From: a bacterium
GTDB lineage: Bacteria; SM23-31; JAUVVT01
Length of the DNA stretch: 8,910 bases
Assembly: GCA_030616165.1 (NCBI GenBank)
Contig: JAUWXV010000155.1
Coordinates: 1-8,910, forward strand
Direction of reading: 5' to 3'
In this document: positions 2 to 8,468 of the stretch, one piece after another
How positions within the stretch are numbered: the first letter of the stretch is position 1
How the letters are laid out: the number at the start of each line of letters is the position of its first letter
Notes under the pieces: model-generated
Database searches by the model: none
What the model was told of the DNA's origin: nothing
Seen by the model: the letters and a program-made list of their open reading frames with translations, nothing else
Made by a program: the position numbers and the translations under genes

Positions 2-931
2 ATGTGCGAAAATATACTTCTACCATACTATTGTAAAAAGCTTACGATTGATCTATTATTTTCAACTGGTAGGGCCTTACCATTATTAGTCCCATGTAAA
101 TCAGTTGTTGTTATTCAAAATATTTTAAGTTTTTATAAAAAAACTAAAGTATTAAGAAATATTTATAGAAGATTAATGATATTTAATTCTCTAAAAAATG
201 CAAATAAAATTATAGCAGTTTCCAATTTTTTAAAAACTAAATTAATTGAAAAATTCAATTGTTATGAGAATAAAATTGATGTTGTTTATGAAGGTGTCAA
301 TATTGATCACTTTAATCCACAAAATATTAATTATGATGAGATGAGTGAGATATTATCTAAATATAACATTAAAAATAATTACCTATTATATGTTTCAGCA
401 TTATGGGCTCATAAGAATGCTGAAAAATTGATTAAAGCATATAAAGTTTTAATAGAGAAATATGGCATTGATAATAATTTGGTAGTTGTGGGAGAAGGGG
501 ATAAGATTTATGAACATAAAATAAAAAATTTAATAAAAGATTTAAATTTAACAAAGTATGTAATATTAACAGGATTTATTGAAAGAAAAAAGTTAAAATA
601 TTTCTACAAAAATGCCTTAGTTTTTATATATCCATCTTCAATTGAGTCTTTTGGATTACCTCCACTGGAAGCAATGGCTATGGGTGTTCCTGTTGTTGCA
701 GCTAATAAAACCGCAGTTCCTGAAATAGTCGGGGATGCTGGTATATTAGTTGATCCAGATAATATTAAAGAATTGTCAGAAGCAATTTATAGTTTAATAA
801 GTAATGTTAGTTTAAGAAATAAATATATTAAAAAGGGTAAAGATAGGATTAAATATTTTTCTTGGTTAAATGGTGCAAGAAAAACAATAGAAATTTTCAA
901 AGTTGTTTATTATAATGGTTATAAGCAATAA
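2..931 (+). CDS. GT4-family glycosyltransferase, 5' end outside the window
   Basis: A retaining GT4 (GT-B fold) glycosyltransferase, predicted to add a sugar from a nucleotide donor to the growing lipid-linked glycan at the cytoplasmic face of the membrane. The C-terminal donor-binding domain is clear. It shows GVN at residues 98-100, SALWAHKN at 132-139, VVVGEGD at 161-167, LTGF at 189-192, and the signature ESFGLPPLEAMAMGVPVVAA at about 215-234, followed by AVPEIVGDAG. The conserved E-x7-E pair is present (Glu215 and Glu223). The N-terminal acceptor domain starts abruptly in what is normally its middle, so the ATG at position 2 is probably an internal methionine and the gene continues upstream. 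About 60-80 residues are likely missing, judging from the usual 360-390 aa. The gene ends 40 bases before the epimerase and is probably in the same operon. The sugar and linkage cannot be read from the sequence. Confidence 0.9.
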   Translation: MCENILLPYYCKKLTIDLLFSTGRALPLLVPCKSVVVIQNILSFYKKTKVLRNIYRRLMIFNSLKNANKIIAVSNFLKTKLIEKFNCYENKIDVVYEGVNIDHFNPQNINYDEMSEILSKYNIKNNYLLYVSALWAHKNAEKLIKAYKVLIEKYGIDNNLVVVGEGDKIYEHKIKNLIKDLNLTKYVILTGFIERKKLKYFYKNALVFIYPSSIESFGLPPLEAMAMGVPVVAANKTAVPEIVGDAGILVDPDNIKELSEAIYSLISNVSLRNKYIKKGKDRIKYFSWLNGARKTIEIFKVVYYNGYKQ

Positions 932-971
932 ACTATTAATTTCTACCACATAAATAAAAAGGAGTTTGGGT

Positions 972-1883
972 ATGAAAAATTTAGTTACTGGAGGGTTAGG
1001 AACAATTGGTAAAGTACTTGTAAAAAAATTGGAAAAATTAGGTCACCAAATAATATTTTGTGATCTTTTTCACTGTCATTCTGAAAATTACATAAAATGT
1101 GATGTGTCCAGTTTTTTACAATTACAACGAATTTTTGAGGAACATAAATTTGATTTTGTTTATCATTTGGCTGCAGAGTTTGGCAGATGGAATGGTGAAG
1201 ATTACTATGAAAATTTATGGAGAACTAATGTTATTGGTACAAAAAATATAATAAGACTGCAAGAAAAATATAAATTTAAGATGATATTTATAAGTAGTTC
1301 AGAGGTTTATGGAGATTATGAAGGTCTTATGCGAGAAGATGTTATGGATAAATTCGAAATTAAACAACTTAATGATTATGCAATGACAAAATGGGTGAAT
1401 GAAATGCAGATTATGAATTCTACTAATATGTTTGGCACAGAAACAGTTCGAGTCAGATTATTTAATACCTATGGCCCTGGAGAATATTATAGTCCTTATA
1501 GAAGTGCAATTTGTATTTTTATATATCATGCGCTTCATGATTTGTCATATAAAGTATTTTTGAATCATCATAGAACTTCAACATACGTATCCGACACCGT
1601 CAATACCCTTTGTAATATAATAGATAATTTTATTCCTAACGAAGTTTATAATATTGGTGGTACTGAATATCATGACATGAAAAAAGTGTCGGATATTATT
1701 CTCGATTATCTAAATAAGAATGATACGTTGGTAGAGTATATTGATGAGGAGTCGTTCACAACAAAAGACAAGAAAATCGATGTTACAAAAGCCATAAAAG
1801 ATTTAAAACATAATCCAAAAATATCGTTAAAAGAAGGAATACCAAAAACAATAGAATGGATGAGAAAAATCTATGCAATATAA
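972..1883 (+). CDS. NAD-dependent epimerase/dehydratase (extended SDR)
   Basis: An extended short-chain dehydrogenase/reductase acting on a nucleotide sugar, 303 aa. The NAD-binding Rossmann motif GGLGTIG is at residues 7-13, with an acidic Asp31 after strand 2. The catalytic set is SSSEVYG (108-114) and Y136-x3-K140 (YAMTK). RLFNTYGPGEYYSPYRS (162-178) and RTSTYVSD (201-208) form the substrate side. The Ser-Glu pair in SSSEVYG and the RLFNTYGPG motif resemble UDP-glucuronate decarboxylase and UDP-glucose epimerase relatives, but the exact reaction is not settled by motifs. I chose ATG 972 because AAAAAGGAG (956-964) lies 7 bases upstream; a TTG two codons earlier (966) would overlap that site's spacer. 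The last 11 bases overlap the next gene, so the two are probably translationally coupled. The product likely supplies the donor sugar for the neighbouring glycosyltransferases. Confidence 0.88.
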   Translation: MKNLVTGGLGTIGKVLVKKLEKLGHQIIFCDLFHCHSENYIKCDVSSFLQLQRIFEEHKFDFVYHLAAEFGRWNGEDYYENLWRTNVIGTKNIIRLQEKYKFKMIFISSSEVYGDYEGLMREDVMDKFEIKQLNDYAMTKWVNEMQIMNSTNMFGTETVRVRLFNTYGPGEYYSPYRSAICIFIYHALHDLSYKVFLNHHRTSTYVSDTVNTLCNIIDNFIPNEVYNIGGTEYHDMKKVSDIILDYLNKNDTLVEYIDEESFTTKDKKIDVTKAIKDLKHNPKISLKEGIPKTIEWMRKIYAI

Positions 1884-2634
1884 TAAATTAAGCTTGTTAA
1901 ATTGCCCAATAGATAATGTAAAAGCGGAAGAGGTTCTAACTATAATTATCGGGAAAATTTCTACATATGAAAGTCTTCATATATGTCCAATAAATGTTGC
2001 AACTTGTATTAATGCTTTAAGAAATAACGATTATTTAGAGAAAATTAAACTTTTTAATTTATCTATTTCAGATGGTGTGTGGATTATAATTGGAGCCAAA
2101 ATATTAGGTATGAATATAAAGGCTCAAGTAAGAACTCCAGACCTAGCAAGGAATATATTGAGATTATGTGTAGATAGAAACTATAAGATATATTTTTTAG
2201 GTGCAAAGAAGGAAATATTAGCAAGATGTATAAACAATATTAAAAAGGAATATCAGGATTTAAAAATTGTCGGATATAATGATGGTTATTTTAGTTTAGA
2301 TAAAGAAGATATAATAGTAAATAATATAAATAAATCTGGGGCAGATGTATTGTTAATTGGTCTTCCAAGTCCTAGAAAAGAAGATTTTGTGATAAATAAT
2401 ATTGGCAAATTAAAACCTATTGTGAGCTTAGGAGTTGGAGGATGGTTTGACATTGTTGGTGGGAAAACAAAAGAAGCACCTATAATAGTACAAAGAATTG
2501 GAATGGAATGGTTCTATAGATTGATACAAGAACCGCGTAGACTTTGGAAAAGGTATTTAATTACAAATACGGTTTTTATTTATTTATTATTCAAAGAAAA
2601 AGTTAAAATATTTATTCAGAGATTTTTTTTATAA
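1873..2634 (+). CDS. WecG/TagA/CpsF family glycosyltransferase (GT26)
   Basis: A GT26 glycosyltransferase of the WecG/TagA/CpsF family, 253 aa, which is the usual length. Known members add the second sugar (for example N-acetylmannosamine or ManNAcA) to an undecaprenyl-diphosphate-linked sugar at the membrane. Family marks are present in order: NVATCINALRN (41-51), the catalytic-region Asp in ISDGVW (65-70), RTPDL (87-91), IYFLGAKKE (106-114), LLIGLPSPRKEDF (160-172), GVGGWFD (187-193), and the basic membrane-binding tail EWFYRLIQEPRRLWKRYL (212-229). The ATG lies inside the end of the epimerase gene (11-base overlap), with GGATGAG just upstream as ribosome site. The last residues (FFL) are encoded across a run of eight T (2623-2630); see findings. 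The donor sugar is not predictable here. Confidence 0.9.
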   Translation: MQYNKLSLLNCPIDNVKAEEVLTIIIGKISTYESLHICPINVATCINALRNNDYLEKIKLFNLSISDGVWIIIGAKILGMNIKAQVRTPDLARNILRLCVDRNYKIYFLGAKKEILARCINNIKKEYQDLKIVGYNDGYFSLDKEDIIVNNINKSGADVLLIGLPSPRKEDFVINNIGKLKPIVSLGVGGWFDIVGGKTKEAPIIVQRIGMEWFYRLIQEPRRLWKRYLITNTVFIYLLFKEKVKIFIQRFFL

Positions 2635-2651
2635 TAAATCTTAATTATATA

Positions 2652-2822
2652 ATGAAATTTCTAAGAAGATTTGCTGATATCCGACAATATAGCTCATTGG
2701 TTTCTAAATTACGTAAAAAACGTATTGCTCTATTTAAGTCTCTTATTAAATCGCTTCCTTGGTCTTATAATTGGGATATAATTGCAAAAGAGACTGAAAA
2801 AGTTTATAAGAGTTTGATTTGA
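2652..2822 (+). pseudogene. chimeric gene scar: methyltransferase start joined to glycosyltransferase end
   Basis: A 56-codon open frame with no visible Shine-Dalgarno sequence. The first part, including SSLVSKLRKKRIALFKSLI and ending in KSLP at residues 33-36, resembles the N-terminal lead-in of class I SAM methyltransferases common in polysaccharide clusters, where a nearby ILDVGG motif normally follows. That motif is absent. Instead the frame runs into WSYNWDIIAKETEKVYKSLI (37-56), which resembles the last helix of GT4 glycosyltransferases (compare FSWLNGARKTIEIFK at the end of the first gene in this window). The best reading is an internal deletion that fused two genes in frame, leaving a remnant. 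The family resemblances are from memory and each rests on only 20-35 residues. It could also be a small unrelated protein. The next 104 bases (2823-2926), up to the flippase gene, contain nothing I can identify. Confidence 0.45.
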
Positions 2823-2926
2823 ATATATTTGTTTTTGCCGCCTTATTTTACAGATTAGTTCAAGAAATTTATTTTTATATGCGAAACCAATTCAAAGAAA
2901 TCCAATTTGTTCTTGATTAAAATTAA

Positions 2927-4159
2927 ATGACATTTTCTCAAAAGAATATTTTCAAGAATTTTTCTTATTTATTAATTGAAAAAATTGCAGTTTTATCTAT
3001 TAATGTTCTTTTAGTATTAATATTACCTGCACATTTAACTTATTTAGAATTTGGTGAATTTATCACAGCATTTAGCATTGTTTCATTATGTTGGATATTT
3101 CTGGAACTTGGTTTTAATACGAAATTAATAAAAGAGATTGCAGCAGATAGAACATCAACTAACTTCTATATCTCTCAAATTTCATTTCTAAAACTTATAA
3201 CCTCCCTTCTAATAATAACATTCGCCATTATATTACTTCAATTCTCATCTTATTCTGAAAATTTGATAAGATGTACATACATTTTACTGATATCCGCATT
3301 TGTCATGAATTTAACAGAAACTTTCCAGTCTGCTTTTAAAGGATTTGAAAAGATGAATTATAGTACTTCTATATTGACTTTTGCAAATTTAATAATCTTT
3401 ATAGGATGTCTATTAATCATAGAAAAGGAGAATGTAATAATTAATATAGCTTTTGTATTTTTAATAGGGAGAATTGTCAATCTTTTATTGTCGTTTATTA
3501 TATTTTCAGGATATTATAAATCATTTAGATTTAATATAAAAATAAAAAATAGCATTTCAATAATGTTTGATTCTCTGACCAGAATACCTGCTCAATTTTT
3601 TCTTTCTAATTTTTACAATCAAGGTATAGTTATTGTCTCTGTGTTGAGCAAGCAGGATGTTGGTAGTTTTGGTTTGGCAGCAAAAATATTAACTTCACTA
3701 ATATTTATATTAACGAGTTTTTTTGAGGCGGTTTTACCAATTATGTCTAAATTTTCTTCTTTGAGTAAAAAAACAACAAAAAATATTTTTTTACACTCTT
3801 TAAAAATACTCATTATAATTATTGTGATTGTAATTTTACTTACTATTGGATTTTCAAAAATAATAATTAGATATATTTTTGGTCCAGAATATATTGATTC
3901 ATATTATTTTTTAAAGATTTTAATAATTGCTTTCCCTTTTATGGTATTAATATCATTATTTCAATACTTTTTGGCTTCAATAAACCAACAGAAAAAGCTA
4001 TTTTTCTATTTGATTGGAGCATTTAGCGCGAATTTTATTTTTTCCTTAACTGGATATGAGATTTTTGGAATAAATGGAGTTATGGGAGCAATATCTTTAA
4101 CTTCAATAGTTTCTTTTATTATAATATATTATTCGTTTTATAGAAAAATTGTAATATAA
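2927..4159 (+). CDS. Wzx-type polysaccharide flippase (MOP superfamily)
   Basis: An integral inner-membrane protein of 410 aa, typical for Wzx/RfbX lipid-linked oligosaccharide flippases of the MOP superfamily. These move the undecaprenyl-linked repeat unit from the cytoplasmic to the periplasmic face. About 12 hydrophobic segments can be drawn, for example near residues 14-35, 44-63, 87-107, 116-131, 150-166, 170-195, 230-240, 254-272, 293-310, 330-352, 358-374 and 383-403. The start has the common arrangement of a short basic N-terminus followed by a first helix, and FGEF in the first loop resembles the LGxF/YGxF motif of the family. FGPEY at 318-322 sits where such proteins usually carry a FGxxY motif. 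No Shine-Dalgarno sequence is visible before the ATG, and the upstream 100 bases are gene-free. The specific lipid-linked substrate is unknown. Confidence 0.85.
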   Translation: MTFSQKNIFKNFSYLLIEKIAVLSINVLLVLILPAHLTYLEFGEFITAFSIVSLCWIFLELGFNTKLIKEIAADRTSTNFYISQISFLKLITSLLIITFAIILLQFSSYSENLIRCTYILLISAFVMNLTETFQSAFKGFEKMNYSTSILTFANLIIFIGCLLIIEKENVIINIAFVFLIGRIVNLLLSFIIFSGYYKSFRFNIKIKNSISIMFDSLTRIPAQFFLSNFYNQGIVIVSVLSKQDVGSFGLAAKILTSLIFILTSFFEAVLPIMSKFSSLSKKTTKNIFLHSLKILIIIIVIVILLTIGFSKIIIRYIFGPEYIDSYYFLKILIIAFPFMVLISLFQYFLASINQQKKLFFYLIGAFSANFIFSLTGYEIFGINGVMGAISLTSIVSFIIIYYSFYRKIVI

Positions 4160-4209
4160 TCTCACTATTTGAAATATAAAGATATTTTATCATTAGGGAA
4201 TTTTAAATA

Positions 4210-5583
4210 ATGAAGATAATTGTTGGAATTTATTTTGTCATTTTATTAATTGTTCCTATTTTACCAGAAAATTTACCATATAAAAATGATATTTTTGTTT
4301 CAATTTTAAGCGTTTTATTGTTATTGCAGTTGTATCTAATCCTTTTTCCCAGATTTAAAAGAGAAAAGAGAATTTATGATATAAAGCAAATTTTTAAAGA
4401 AAAAAGCATAATTTTTCTTTCTCTTTTTTCATTAATTTCTTTAGCATCTCTATTTTTTTCTTCAAATATATTGATTGGTCTAAAGAAATATTGGCTTTTT
4501 TTTACAATTATTCCTGTTCCAATAATTTTATTTATTTTAGTAAAAGATAGCATAGTCAGGGAAATTTTTATCTATGTATCTTTAATATCTTCCACTTTTT
4601 TATCTATTTGGGGGATTTGTGAATATTATGGAATAATTCCTTATAGTTTAAGCGAGATTTATAGAAGTCGTGTGTCAGCTTCTTTTTCAAATCCTAATCA
4701 CTTTTCATCGTATTTAAGTTCTACTTTTCTATTATTGGCTTTGTATTTTTTGCAAATAAAAAATAGTAAATATAAATTAATTTTTATGATAATTTTGTGT
4801 TTAATTTATTCTAACATTCTTTATTCGGAAACAAGGGGAGTATGGATTAGTTTAATTATTGCAATAGTATTTTTATCTTTTTTCATAATCAGATATTCAT
4901 TCTATATTGTTAAAAAAAATAAATACTGGTTAGTGTCTTTTAGTGTATTACTTATTTTAATTACTTTTATTTACTCTTATCCAACTCCTATTAGGCACCC
5001 TAAATCCATTTCTGTTACAGAGAGGCTGTCTTCAACTTCAGAGATATTGGATATGAGTTCAACAAAAGATTTTTCATTAAAGGAGAGATTATATATTTGG
5101 GAAATAGCCTTCAAAATGATTGAGAATTCTCCTGCATTAGGCGTTGGTTGGGGGAATTTTAAAGAGAGTTTTAAAGTTGTAAGAAATTTATTATATACCA
5201 ATCCTGAGTTTCTTAATAGATTTCCTCCAAATATTTTTAAAAATATTAAAGAGCATGCACATAACGAGTTTTTACATATCGGAGCTGAATCAGGAATTTT
5301 AAGTTTAATATTTTTTATAACTTTTTTATTATTTTTATTCTTAAAATTAAAAAAGGTTAATTATACCCGGTCAGAATTTAATATATTATTCATTATAGGT
5401 ATAATGAGTTGTACCTTGACAATTTTAGTACACGGATTAGTAGGTTATCCCCTGCATATTTTGCCTACAGCATTAAACTTTTGGACCTTTACAGCTTTTA
5501 TAATAGTAAATTATTATAGAAAGGTTTATCAAAGAACAAAAGAAAAACCTGATAATAGTTCTGTCTTGTTTTTTGTATTATAA
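4210..5583 (+). CDS. O-antigen ligase/polymerase-like membrane protein (Wzy/WaaL type)
   Basis: A polytopic membrane protein of 457 aa carrying the O-antigen ligase domain (PF04932 type). Proteins of this family act on the periplasmic side, either joining glycan to lipid A-core (WaaL) or polymerising repeat units (Wzy). The motifs can be read in order: RVSASFSNPNHFSSYL (154-169, with the NPN core), ETRGVW (207-212), RLYIWEIAFKMI (293-304) followed by PALGVGWGNF (308-317), and EHAHNEFLHIGAESG (348-362). The large region between about residues 259 and 355 is the expected periplasmic loop, flanked by hydrophobic segments on both sides. Sequence alone does not separate ligase from polymerase; its place beside a flippase in a small cluster makes polymerase at least as likely. 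AGGGAA (4195-4200) is a weak ribosome site 9 bases before the ATG. The gap to the next gene is 11 bases, so it is co-transcribed. Confidence 0.85.
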   Translation: MKIIVGIYFVILLIVPILPENLPYKNDIFVSILSVLLLLQLYLILFPRFKREKRIYDIKQIFKEKSIIFLSLFSLISLASLFFSSNILIGLKKYWLFFTIIPVPIILFILVKDSIVREIFIYVSLISSTFLSIWGICEYYGIIPYSLSEIYRSRVSASFSNPNHFSSYLSSTFLLLALYFLQIKNSKYKLIFMIILCLIYSNILYSETRGVWISLIIAIVFLSFFIIRYSFYIVKKNKYWLVSFSVLLILITFIYSYPTPIRHPKSISVTERLSSTSEILDMSSTKDFSLKERLYIWEIAFKMIENSPALGVGWGNFKESFKVVRNLLYTNPEFLNRFPPNIFKNIKEHAHNEFLHIGAESGILSLIFFITFLLFLFLKLKKVNYTRSEFNILFIIGIMSCTLTILVHGLVGYPLHILPTALNFWTFTAFIIVNYYRKVYQRTKEKPDNSSVLFFVL

Positions 5584-5594
5584 AAGGATTTCCT

Positions 5595-6311
5595 ATGAGA
5601 AAACACTATTTCATAAATGTATTTTTAGTTATAATATTTGCATTTATTTCATCTCAAGAACAGAATATAAACAATATAATCCCTATTGAAACTTTATCCT
5701 TTGAAGATCAAGTTGCAGTTAAAAACATAATAGATAATTTGGCTGTAAATGTGGAATACAAAGATAACAAATTTAGATGTGATCAGAATATATTCAATTT
5801 GCTATTGGACAATTTGCCACTTTCATCATCTATTTGGCGAGCTTACAATTTTGCTCCTCCTTATCTTATCAAATCAAAAAATCATAATGAGTTTTATATT
5901 GAGGATGGTGTGAGATTAAAAGGAGTGTTGAAATTAGTATATAAAGATATATCAAAAAGAATCTATATTGCACATGGTACAATAAAATTTGACAAAACAA
6001 TCGTAAAGATAGAAATAGAAGGAGGTGCAATAATTATTGTGGAAAATTATATGTCAGGTAATGAAATTAATAATAATATTTATGTACATGCAAAATTGGA
6101 AAATACATTTTGGAAATACTTATCAAAGATATCTTACACTATTTTCAAGAGATTTATTGATAATAGAATAAATAACATCATAAAAGACACAAAAGCTATT
6201 GCTTATAATGTTTACTCAAATCCCAAAAGAGTTTTATTTTTGTTAAAAAGTAAAAATGGAAATTCAGAAGAAATATTAAAGTTTGAAAATGTTTTTATAA
6301 AATCAGAATAG
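5595..6311 (+). CDS. secreted protein of unknown function, end of polysaccharide operon
   Basis: I do not recognise this 238-aa protein with confidence. It begins with a short basic stretch (MRKHYF) and a hydrophobic core up to about residue 18, followed by SSQEQN. This is a signal peptide with probable cleavage near residue 20; there is no lipobox cysteine, so it should be periplasmic or exported. The mature part has a short helical section, then alternating beta-rich segments from about residues 84 to 170 (IEDGVRLKGVLKLVY, RIYIAHGTIKF, VKIEIEGGAIIIVENY, NIYVHAKLEN), then a helical C-terminal part with FKRFIDNRINNIIKD. That layout could fit a lipid- or ligand-binding helix-grip fold, but this is a guess from pattern only. 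AAAAGGA (5582-5588) lies 6 bases before the ATG, and the gene starts 11 bases after the ligase/polymerase stop, so it belongs to the operon and may have a role in envelope glycan export. Confidence 0.75.
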   Translation: MRKHYFINVFLVIIFAFISSQEQNINNIIPIETLSFEDQVAVKNIIDNLAVNVEYKDNKFRCDQNIFNLLLDNLPLSSSIWRAYNFAPPYLIKSKNHNEFYIEDGVRLKGVLKLVYKDISKRIYIAHGTIKFDKTIVKIEIEGGAIIIVENYMSGNEINNNIYVHAKLENTFWKYLSKISYTIFKRFIDNRINNIIKDTKAIAYNVYSNPKRVLFLLKSKNGNSEEILKFENVFIKSE

Positions 6312-6552
6312 ATAATCGTAGTTAAAAACAATGTTATTACATGAAGTTCTTTTTTTATTTTGAAATGTTCATATTTTATTTGTAAATTATATAAAAATTT
6401 AAAAAATAATGATTATTTCAGTGCCATTCCGGGGATAATTCGAATACTATTTTCCGAAATTAAATCTATTTTCGGCAAAATATATCAAACTATAAGATTA
6501 AATTAAAACAAGAATATATGGAGTATTTTCTTTATTATCAATAGCATACGAA

Positions 6553-6573
6553 ATCGACTCCTGCCCTCGGCAC
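6553..6573 (+). other. orphan tRNA 3'-end fragment, candidate attachment-site remnant
   Basis: The bases fit the 3' end of a tRNA element by element: T-loop ATCGACT (6553-6559, consensus TTCGANT), 3' T-stem strand CCTGC (6560-6564), 3' acceptor strand CCTCGGC (6565-6571) and discriminator A (6572). After that comes CTTT rather than a full CCA. The acceptor strand would pair with a 5' GCCGAGG, which is typical of bacterial tRNA-Leu and tRNA-Phe. The rest of the tRNA is missing: the bases before the T-loop (GCATACGA) do not supply the GCAGG pairing strand, and no GCCGAGG occurs about 75 bases upstream. A 3'-end copy followed by the gene's own terminator is what integration into a tRNA gene leaves at one boundary. 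It could also be a decayed tRNA gene or a chance match. Confidence 0.5.
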
Positions 6574-6580
6574 TTTAATT

Positions 6581-6615
6581 AAAGCCCTTCATTGATTATT
6601 TCCGAAGGGTTTTTT
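6581..6615 (+). terminator. intrinsic (Rho-independent) terminator
   Basis: CCCTTC (6585-6590) pairs with GAAGGG (6604-6609). The stem can extend outward by a G-U and three A-U pairs into the T run, and the loop is 13 bases. Six T residues (6610-6615) follow directly. It reads on the + strand, eight bases after the tRNA-like fragment, so it may be the original tRNA terminator. It would also stop transcription from the polysaccharide operon and insulate dtd. Confidence 0.75.
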
Positions 6616-6626
6616 ACTTAAAATAA

Positions 6627-6656
6627 TTGATTTTCGGAGAAAATAAATGTTATAAT
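6627..6656 (+). promoter_or_regulatory. possible sigma-70-type promoter for dtd
   Basis: TTGATT (6627-6632) and a perfect TATAAT (6651-6656) are separated by 18 bases, just downstream of the terminator, where dtd needs its own promoter. The expected start of transcription would be near 6663, inside the dtd start codon at 6660, which is slightly too late for a leaderless message unless initiation is early. The TATAAT could be chance in such AT-rich DNA. Confidence 0.35.
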
Positions 6657-6659
6657 ATT

Positions 6660-7100
6660 ATGAGAGCGGTAATTCAAAGGGTCAAATGGAGTAGGGTTAA
6701 GGTAGATGGGAACGTTGTTGGGGAGATTAAAAAAGGATTGATTATCCTTCTTGGTGTTTCGGTCGATGATAACGAAGAAAACGTAAGGTATCTTGCGGAC
6801 AAATGCGTTAACTTGCGAATATTTAACGATAGTGAAGGGAAAATGAATTTATCTGTACTTGATGTTAGTGGAGAAATTTTATCTATTTCGCAATTTACTT
6901 TATATGCTGACACAAGAAAGGGAAGGAGACCAAGTTTTGTTGGAGCTGCTGACCCGATAAAAGGTGAAAAGTTATACGAAAAGTTTAATCAGTATTTAAG
7001 TGATACTGGCTTGAAAATACAAACGGGTATATTTGGAGCCATGATGGAAGTTGAACTATTGAACGATGGTCCGGTAACCATTATTGTCGATTCAAAATAG
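6660..7100 (+). CDS. dtd: D-aminoacyl-tRNA deacylase (Dtd)
   Basis: A cytoplasmic proofreading enzyme that hydrolyses the ester bond of D-amino acids (and glycine on tRNA-Ala) mischarged to tRNA, 146 aa, the usual length. The two family hallmarks are intact: SQFTLYAD at residues 77-84 (active-site Ser-Gln-Phe-Thr) and NDGPVT at 135-140 (Gly-cisPro chirality filter). KGRRPSF (87-93) is also typical. I place the start at ATG 6660 because the family begins with MRAVIQRV. An in-frame TTG at 6627 would add 11 unrelated residues and has no ribosome site. GGAGA (6636-6640) lies about 19 bases from ATG 6660, too far for normal use, so the initiation signal is unclear. The gene stands alone between a terminator and a 312-base gap, and is less AT-rich than the polysaccharide genes to its left. 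Confidence 0.96.
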   Translation: MRAVIQRVKWSRVKVDGNVVGEIKKGLIILLGVSVDDNEENVRYLADKCVNLRIFNDSEGKMNLSVLDVSGEILSISQFTLYADTRKGRRPSFVGAADPIKGEKLYEKFNQYLSDTGLKIQTGIFGAMMEVELLNDGPVTIIVDSK

Positions 7101-7412
7101 GTGCATTCCTTTTAATTTTATCCCTTTTTAATTTTTAAATTATTATATTATATTAAATAGCATGAATAGTTTATTAGATTCTTTATTTTCTTAGACAAAT
7201 TATTGAAATTATTAAAAATATTACAGAATTACATTTAAAACAGGTTTAGGCTCTATCACTATTGTCATTCCGATCCTGATACATGTTCAGGATCTTCGGA
7301 ATCTTTTATTTATAGATCCTGAAATAAATTCAGGATGACAGGAAAAGGGTAAATAAATTTAAAATAACAATAACAGAATTTATAAATAAATCAGATTAGA
7401 TTTTTTAGAATT
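7101..7412. other. 312-base gap between dtd and ispG
   Basis: No gene is visible. The left 160 bases are AT-rich with no strong hairpin, so I see no clear dtd terminator. The middle holds the palindromic repeat at 7263-7340. The right 70 bases before ispG are again AT-rich; TAGAAT (7406-7411) sits directly before the ispG start codon but has no convincing partner hexamer. Confidence 0.6.
7263..7340. repeat. palindromic intergenic repeat, TGTCATTCC type
   Basis: The unit begins TGTCAT (7263-7268) and ends ATGACA (7335-7340), an inverted pair. Inside are two hairpins. In the first, ATTCCGATCCTGA (7267-7279) pairs with TTCAGGATCTTCGGAAT (7286-7302) apart from a three-base bulge. In the second, ATCCTGAA (7316-7323) pairs perfectly with TTCAGGAT (7329-7336) over a 5-base loop. 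The core ATCCTGA/TCAGGAT thus occurs twice in each direction. Short palindromes with TGTCATTCC and GGATGACA ends are widespread dispersed intergenic repeats in many bacterial genomes; no protein is encoded. Transcribed RNA would fold strongly and might affect dtd or ispG message ends. Confidence 0.75.
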
Positions 7413-8468
7413 ATGGAAAGGAAAAAAACAAAGAAGGTTTTTGTAAAGGATGTTGTAATTGGAGGTGGAGAACCTGTATCTGTTCAATCTATGACTAAAA
7501 CAAGGACAGAAGATATAAAATCGACAATAAGGCAGATAAAGGAATTAGAAGAATATGGATGCCAGATAGTCCGTTCGGCTGTTCCCAATATGGAGGCGGC
7601 GATGGCGGTAAGGGAGATAATAAAGAATATAAAAATTCCACTGGTTGCTGATATTCATTTTGACTATCGGCTGGCTCTGGCGGTTCTTGATGGGGGTATT
7701 GATAAAATAAGGATTAATCCGGGCAATATCGGTTCTGTAGAGAGAATTAACAAGGTTCTTAAAAAAGCAAAGGAACTGTCTGTTCCCATTAGAATAGGAG
7801 TGAATTCGGGTTCACTTGAAAAGGATATACTGAATAAATATAAAAAACCGACCCCTGAAGCCCTTGTAGAGAGCGCATTGAGGCATGTAAAGATTTGTGA
7901 AGAGGCTGATTTTGACCAGATTGTTATATCAATCAAATCCTCGGATGTAAATCTGATGGTTGATTCATATCGCCTTATATCGAAAAAGGTAGATTATCCT
8001 CTACACCTTGGTGTGACCGAGGCAGGTTCTGTGTGGTCTGGTACTATTAAATCGGCAGTGGGAATAGGAACACTGCTTGCGGAGGGTATCGGAAATACAA
8101 TAAGGGTATCGCTGACTGGAAGTCCAGTGGAAGAGGTTAAAGCTGCTAAGGAGATTTTAAAATCCCTGAACCTAAGGAATGATAGTATAACCTTGATTTC
8201 CTGCCCTACCTGTGGGAGAATCCAGGCAGACCTTATTGATATTGTAAATAAGTTAGAAAAGGAGATATATAAATTTAATAAGCCTTTAAAAGTTGCTGTT
8301 ATGGGATGTGCTGTTAATGGACCCGGAGAGGCAAAAGAAGCTGATATCGGTGCTGCATTTGGGAAGAAATCTGCTATAATCTTTAAAAAGGGTTCTGTTA
8401 TTGGAAAGGTTCCTGAGGAGAAGGTTATCGAAACTCTAATTTCTGAAATTAAAAACTGGAATGTTTAA
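7413..8468 (+). CDS. ispG: 4-hydroxy-3-methylbut-2-en-1-yl diphosphate synthase (IspG/GcpE)
   Basis: IspG catalyses the penultimate step of the MEP isoprenoid pathway, reducing 2-C-methyl-D-erythritol 2,4-cyclodiphosphate to HMBPP with a [4Fe-4S] cluster in the cytoplasm. The protein is 351 aa, a normal length for the short bacterial type without the inserted domain of plant and Chlamydia enzymes. The N-terminal TIM-barrel part shows VSVQSMTKTRTED (22-34), VADIHFDYRLAL (78-89) and IRINPGNIG (99-107). The cluster ligands are complete: Cys264 and Cys267 in SCPTCGR, Cys299 in GCAVNGPGEA and Glu306. Their spacing (3, 32, 7) equals that of E. coli Cys270, Cys273, Cys305 and Glu312. No Shine-Dalgarno sequence precedes the ATG, but the family N-terminus supports this start. 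It is transcribed in the same direction as the TPR gene 62 bases downstream. Confidence 0.97.
   Translation: MERKKTKKVFVKDVVIGGGEPVSVQSMTKTRTEDIKSTIRQIKELEEYGCQIVRSAVPNMEAAMAVREIIKNIKIPLVADIHFDYRLALAVLDGGIDKIRINPGNIGSVERINKVLKKAKELSVPIRIGVNSGSLEKDILNKYKKPTPEALVESALRHVKICEEADFDQIVISIKSSDVNLMVDSYRLISKKVDYPLHLGVTEAGSVWSGTIKSAVGIGTLLAEGIGNTIRVSLTGSPVEEVKAAKEILKSLNLRNDSITLISCPTCGRIQADLIDIVNKLEKEIYKFNKPLKVAVMGCAVNGPGEAKEADIGAAFGKKSAIIFKKGSVIGKVPEEKVIETLISEIKNWNV

Follow-up and report, generated by a model that had tools for sequence, protein, structure and literature searches.

An orphan tRNA-Leu 3' end at the border between a polysaccharide cluster and dtd in an uncultured bacterium

Introduction

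The Islander catalogue collects genomic islands that are integrated in tRNA genes and lie between a tRNA gene and a displaced fragment of it, and the T-loop is among the crossover subsites that it records (PMC4383910). Island PYG1 of Pyrococcus yayanosii has a partial Gln-TTG tRNA gene alongside, and its 44 bp repeat, both of its ends and the island itself are known (PMC9897764). Here we describe a partial tRNA gene in a window of 8,910 nucleotides, the whole stretch of DNA that was analyzed and the complete contig C303 of a draft bacterial assembly (3.74 Mb, 343 contigs, 90% complete). The overall goal of our analysis was to evaluate a first-pass annotation that had read this partial gene as the mark of an insertion by a tRNA-targeting integrase.

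Results

A tRNA-Leu 3' fragment followed by a hairpin

The following features of the window are used throughout (coordinates, strand, description and evidence).

2..6311, +, polysaccharide cluster, putative element side; Pfam and NCBIfam matches, 25.3% GC
6554..6572, +, 3' fragment of a tRNA-Leu gene; 17/19 against resident Leu(CAA), 16/19 against Leu(TAA), unique in the assembly
6573..6578, +, CTTTAA, the same as the bases after tRNA-Leu(CAA) on contig C272; part of a 25-nt BLAST block, 3' C plus five bases past the tRNA
6580..6616, +, hairpin and T-run, probable intrinsic terminator, presumably the tRNA's original one; predicted fold, z = -2.8 for 6550-6622
6660..7100, +, dtd (D-aminoacyl-tRNA deacylase), putative chromosomal flank; PF02580, E 1e-59
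7413..8468, +, ispG/gcpE, putative chromosomal flank; PF04551, E 1e-153

The 19 bases at 6554..6572 on the plus strand (TCGACTCCTGCCCTCGGCA) correspond, in order, to the T-loop from its second T, the 3' strand of the T-stem, the 3' strand of the acceptor stem and the discriminator A at 6572. The next base, 6573, is C; almost every tRNA gene in this genome has the same base after its discriminator. A 21-base tRNA 3' end had originally been placed at 6553-6573. The order of its parts stands, and we trimmed its extent at both ends: identity to the resident tRNA starts at 6554, because position 6553 is A where that tRNA has T, and the C at 6573 lies past the discriminator. The 5' three-quarters of the tRNA is absent, as first described, with no 5' part of a tRNA-Leu found on either strand of the window, and neither ARAGORN nor Rfam at its gathering threshold reported a tRNA there. 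The fragment is a GC-rich 19-mer inside AT-rich intergenic DNA. It reaches the 3' end of a tRNA gene and lies outside conserved protein domains, the properties by which Islander defines a fragment. We regard the observation of an orphan tRNA 3' end as confirmed.

Between the C that follows the fragment and the hairpin there is a short A/T-rich stretch. The hairpin arms, AAAGCCCTTC and GAAGGGTTTTTT, fold, and the 73-nt stretch that contains them has the z-score given above. A terminator scan that allowed loops of 3-8 nt omitted this hairpin because its loop is 13 nt. From its predicted fold and its T-run, the hairpin is probably an intrinsic terminator, and it is presumably the original terminator of the tRNA. 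The terminator previously claimed just past the fragment corresponds to a terminator-like hairpin.

Resemblance to resident tRNA genes

The 17-mer GACTCCTGCCCTCGGCA occurs nowhere else in the 3.74-Mb assembly. Allowing up to two mismatches adds a single site, at the 3' end of the intact tRNA-Leu(CAA) gene on C272 (C272:15261-15345, minus strand), and a reversed-pattern control gave 0 matches. When 6312-6660 was compared with the whole assembly by BLAST, the same 3' end was the joint-best non-self match (25 nt, 92%, E = 0.007), with 6554-6578 and C272:15255-15279 identical, in register, at 23 of 25 positions. Agreement over the CTTTAA in this block is weak evidence, because the resident tRNA-Val(CAC) also has TTTAA there. 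In a ranking of resident tRNA ends, Leu(CAA) (23/27) and Leu(TAA) (22/27) came out on top and all others scored at most 18, and the fragment therefore comes from a tRNA-Leu. The isotype had been left as Leu or Phe; only Leu stands, Phe being ruled out by a resident tRNA-Phe that ends GCGCCA and by non-Leu ends of at most 18/27.

Both differences between the fragment and Leu(CAA) are C-to-T changes, a pattern that fits a copy that has lost its function and decayed in an AT-rich genome. It is about as possible that the source was Leu(GAG) or Leu(TAG), which are missing from the assembly along with several other tRNAs. Exact and near-exact searches found no identical intact tRNA end in the genome itself or in any of the six genomes from the class or phylum. 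The first-pass annotation had proposed that absence of such an end from the genome would refute integration. Taken literally, this holds, as every assembled tRNA has a different end, and the objection is weak because the assembly is a 343-contig draft without Leu(GAG) and Leu(TAG) and because a decayed fragment would mismatch its source. In viral contigs, the 19-mer was not found as a possible phage attP; its 15-base core had 22 matches there, none of them in a recognizable tRNA.

Flanking genes and base composition

The fragment has the same orientation as the polysaccharide cluster to its left, and the window starts inside that cluster. The cluster genes encode a group 1 glycosyltransferase, an epimerase, a WecG/TagA/CpsF protein, a flippase, a Wzy_C/O-antigen ligase and a 238-amino-acid protein of no family. 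This last protein (window 5595-6311) begins with a hydrophobic, signal-like segment and matched nothing in Pfam or NCBIfam. GC content steps across the fragment from 25.3% on the polysaccharide side to 33.9% on the dtd/ispG side. We treat this step as supporting evidence only, because low GC is common in polysaccharide clusters for unrelated reasons.

The dtd gene is closely related to that of a candidate division KSB1 assembly. There was no tRNA in the examined dtd flanks of five relatives from the class. In the nearest of these relatives (84% dtd identity), the contig begins 297 bp before dtd and those bases contain no tRNA. None of the window's polysaccharide genes lies beside dtd in the relatives, which have no dtd-polysaccharide synteny. 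With neither tRNA nor polysaccharide genes in these flanks, the five class relatives offer no empty site.

The intergenic DNA between dtd and ispG contains an inverted repeat, GTCATTCCGATCCTGATACATGTTCAGGATCTTCGGAAT, at window 7260-7300. A similar palindrome, GTCATTCC...GGAATC, occurs near a tRNA-Met gene on contig C150, so the repeat may be dispersed.

Integrases in the window and in the genome

As stated in the first-pass annotation, the window has no recognizable integrase. The same is true of C272, and tblastn with five resident integrases gave nothing above noise in either contig; this result covers the two contigs, and sequence between them is unassembled or unrecognized. Elsewhere in the genome, eleven matches to the phage integrase family exceed the threshold, and four of them lie beside tRNA genes. 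Tyrosine integrases beside tRNA genes indicate that tRNA-targeted insertion occurs in this lineage. These matches show that tRNA-associated integrases are present in the genome; none is thereby tied to the fragment. The four tRNA-adjacent integrases belong to one family, which has TTGCCA-type repeats next to short tRNA-derived stretches, and the window contains neither. Neither the window nor C272 contains an exact match to TGGCAAGAAA, the arm-like motif of this family.

The four related tyrosine integrases (three of ~390 amino acids and one partial) are on C106 (L209), C127 (L210), C150 (L208) and C94 (L212), beside genes for tRNA-Ala GGC, Arg CCT, Met and Pro CGG. They have TGGCAAGAATTGGCAAGG-type repeats at their 3' ends, and near them is a short stretch resembling the 5' strand of a tRNA D-stem/anticodon-stem, usually next to TTTCTTGCCA. 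On C94 (4212-4248, minus strand; L212:1307-1343), the 5' half of tRNA-Pro(CGG), broken off in the anticodon, is present as a 37-nt exact copy. The intact tRNA-Pro gene follows 59 bases downstream, and the copy occupies part of the gap that separates this gene from the partial integrase. This copy is the rarer, 5'-fragment kind of tRNA scar.

Contig C272 as a candidate far end

Downstream of tRNA-Leu(CAA) on C272, the main genes all point the same way. They encode a PAS histidine kinase, two proteins with type IX sorting tails (the first secreted, the second of 2902 residues) and a polyprenyl glycosylphosphotransferase. GC content drops to ~25% at this last gene, and the contig stops inside the gene that follows. 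The low-GC polysaccharide cluster is 13.5 kb downstream of the tRNA and in the same orientation. The arrangement is suggestive of the left half of an island inserted in a tRNA gene; joined to the window, it would give the candidate order tRNA-Leu(CAA), island, 3' stub, dtd, which is the classical arrangement for islands of this type (PMC4383910).

The ends of C272 and C303 do not overlap and share no sequence. Islander looks for an intact cognate tRNA on the same replicon, upstream of the 3' fragment, in the same orientation and 2-200 kb away; the orientation of tRNA-Leu(CAA) fits, and the contigs are unlinked and the ends differ by two base changes. The polysaccharide clusters on C237, C146 and C109 are also open and could equally be the left neighbors of the window, with cluster GC mostly 28-36% versus 25% here. 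The tRNA-Leu(CAA) gene has its own terminator-like hairpin, which an element could have supplied.

The intact upstream tRNA with a matching end that the first-pass annotation anticipated has a candidate counterpart, identical at 17 of 19 positions rather than exactly and on an unlinked contig. This tRNA-Leu(CAA) is the best candidate for the far end, the alternative being an unassembled tRNA-Leu(GAG) or Leu(TAG). We put forward, as a doubtful reconstruction, that a single island of at least 22 kb, inserted at tRNA-Leu(CAA) in a KSB1-like bacterium, has C272 at one end and the window at the other. It would carry an exopolysaccharide cluster, a sensor kinase and giant secreted surface proteins; the 22 kb seen includes no recognizable integrase.

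Discussion

We favor the interpretation, with a probability of roughly 0.6, that insertion through a tyrosine integrase displaced the 3' end of a tRNA-Leu gene and left it behind as the fragment. In such an event, the element would have inserted at the T-loop, and its own copy of the tRNA 3' end would have rebuilt a working tRNA at the far left end. The original 3' stub, with its terminator, would have ended up next to dtd, at the right border. The polysaccharide genes could be cargo of the island or a later acquisition, and the integrase may have been lost or may be in unassembled sequence. The site before insertion would have read whole tRNA-Leu, CTTTAATTAAAGCCCTTC, dtd. Of the tRNA-targeted integration originally proposed, the T-loop breakpoint, the tRNA-sense orientation, the retained hairpin and the GC step all fit; an identical or linked intact tRNA, an integrase and an empty site are missing, and the interpretation is unproven for that reason.

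The main rival is that a whole tRNA-Leu once stood upstream of dtd and lost its 5' three-quarters by deletion, homologous recombination or cluster replacement, with no integrase involved. Many bacteria exchange polysaccharide loci by recombination, resident tRNA-Leu copies would be available as recombination partners, and neither the window nor C272 has a recognizable integrase. However, the breakpoint is in the T-loop, a standard integrase crossover subsite (PMC4383910), where a random deletion would end only by chance. We consider this origin possible but on the unlikely side.

Two other explanations were weighed. The assembly could have joined two unrelated pieces at a tRNA-like sequence, as might happen in a draft, metagenome-type assembly of 343 contigs, and the GC step falls at the same point. 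The bases to the left of 6554, however, occur at no other tRNA end in the assembly, so there is no sign of a repeat at the junction that would be long enough to have misled the assembler, and we judge such an artefact improbable. The silence of the Rfam tRNA covariance model even at a permissive E = 10 would agree with a merely coincidental likeness to a tRNA end, although a stretch of 19 bases is too short for this model. Against chance, a model of local base composition predicts that the window would contain ~2e-5 comparably good matches to any of ~40 tRNA ends, and the GC-rich 19-mer stands in AT-rich intergenic DNA with its parts in the right order and a hairpin behind it. By this estimate chance is negligible, and we give it hardly any weight.

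If displacement by an integrase is confirmed, the fragment would establish one edge of a cell-surface gene cluster that an uncultured, poorly sampled lineage gained by horizontal transfer. It would also show that surface polysaccharides are exchanged at tRNA genes in such lineages, through a mechanism that is itself well known.

Compared with the known systems, the locus resembles the 3'-fragment type of Islander with a T-loop/junction subsite in its tRNA-sense 3' fragment, its break in the T-arm and its composition border (PMC4383910). In contrast to Islander islands, it presents one end only, with neither an integrase nor a linked intact tRNA, and would not pass the Islander integrase filter (PMC4383910). 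Whereas PYG1 has a 44 bp repeat with both ends known, the repeat here would be ~19-25 bp, inexact relative to the only candidate, with one end known; the two loci are alike in having a non-functional partial tRNA copy that borders an inserted block (PMC9897764). The fragment is most likely an ordinary scar, marking one end of a DNA insertion that entered a tRNA gene long ago. Whether it arose by insertion or as the remnant of a deletion or cluster replacement, it is a feature of a known kind.
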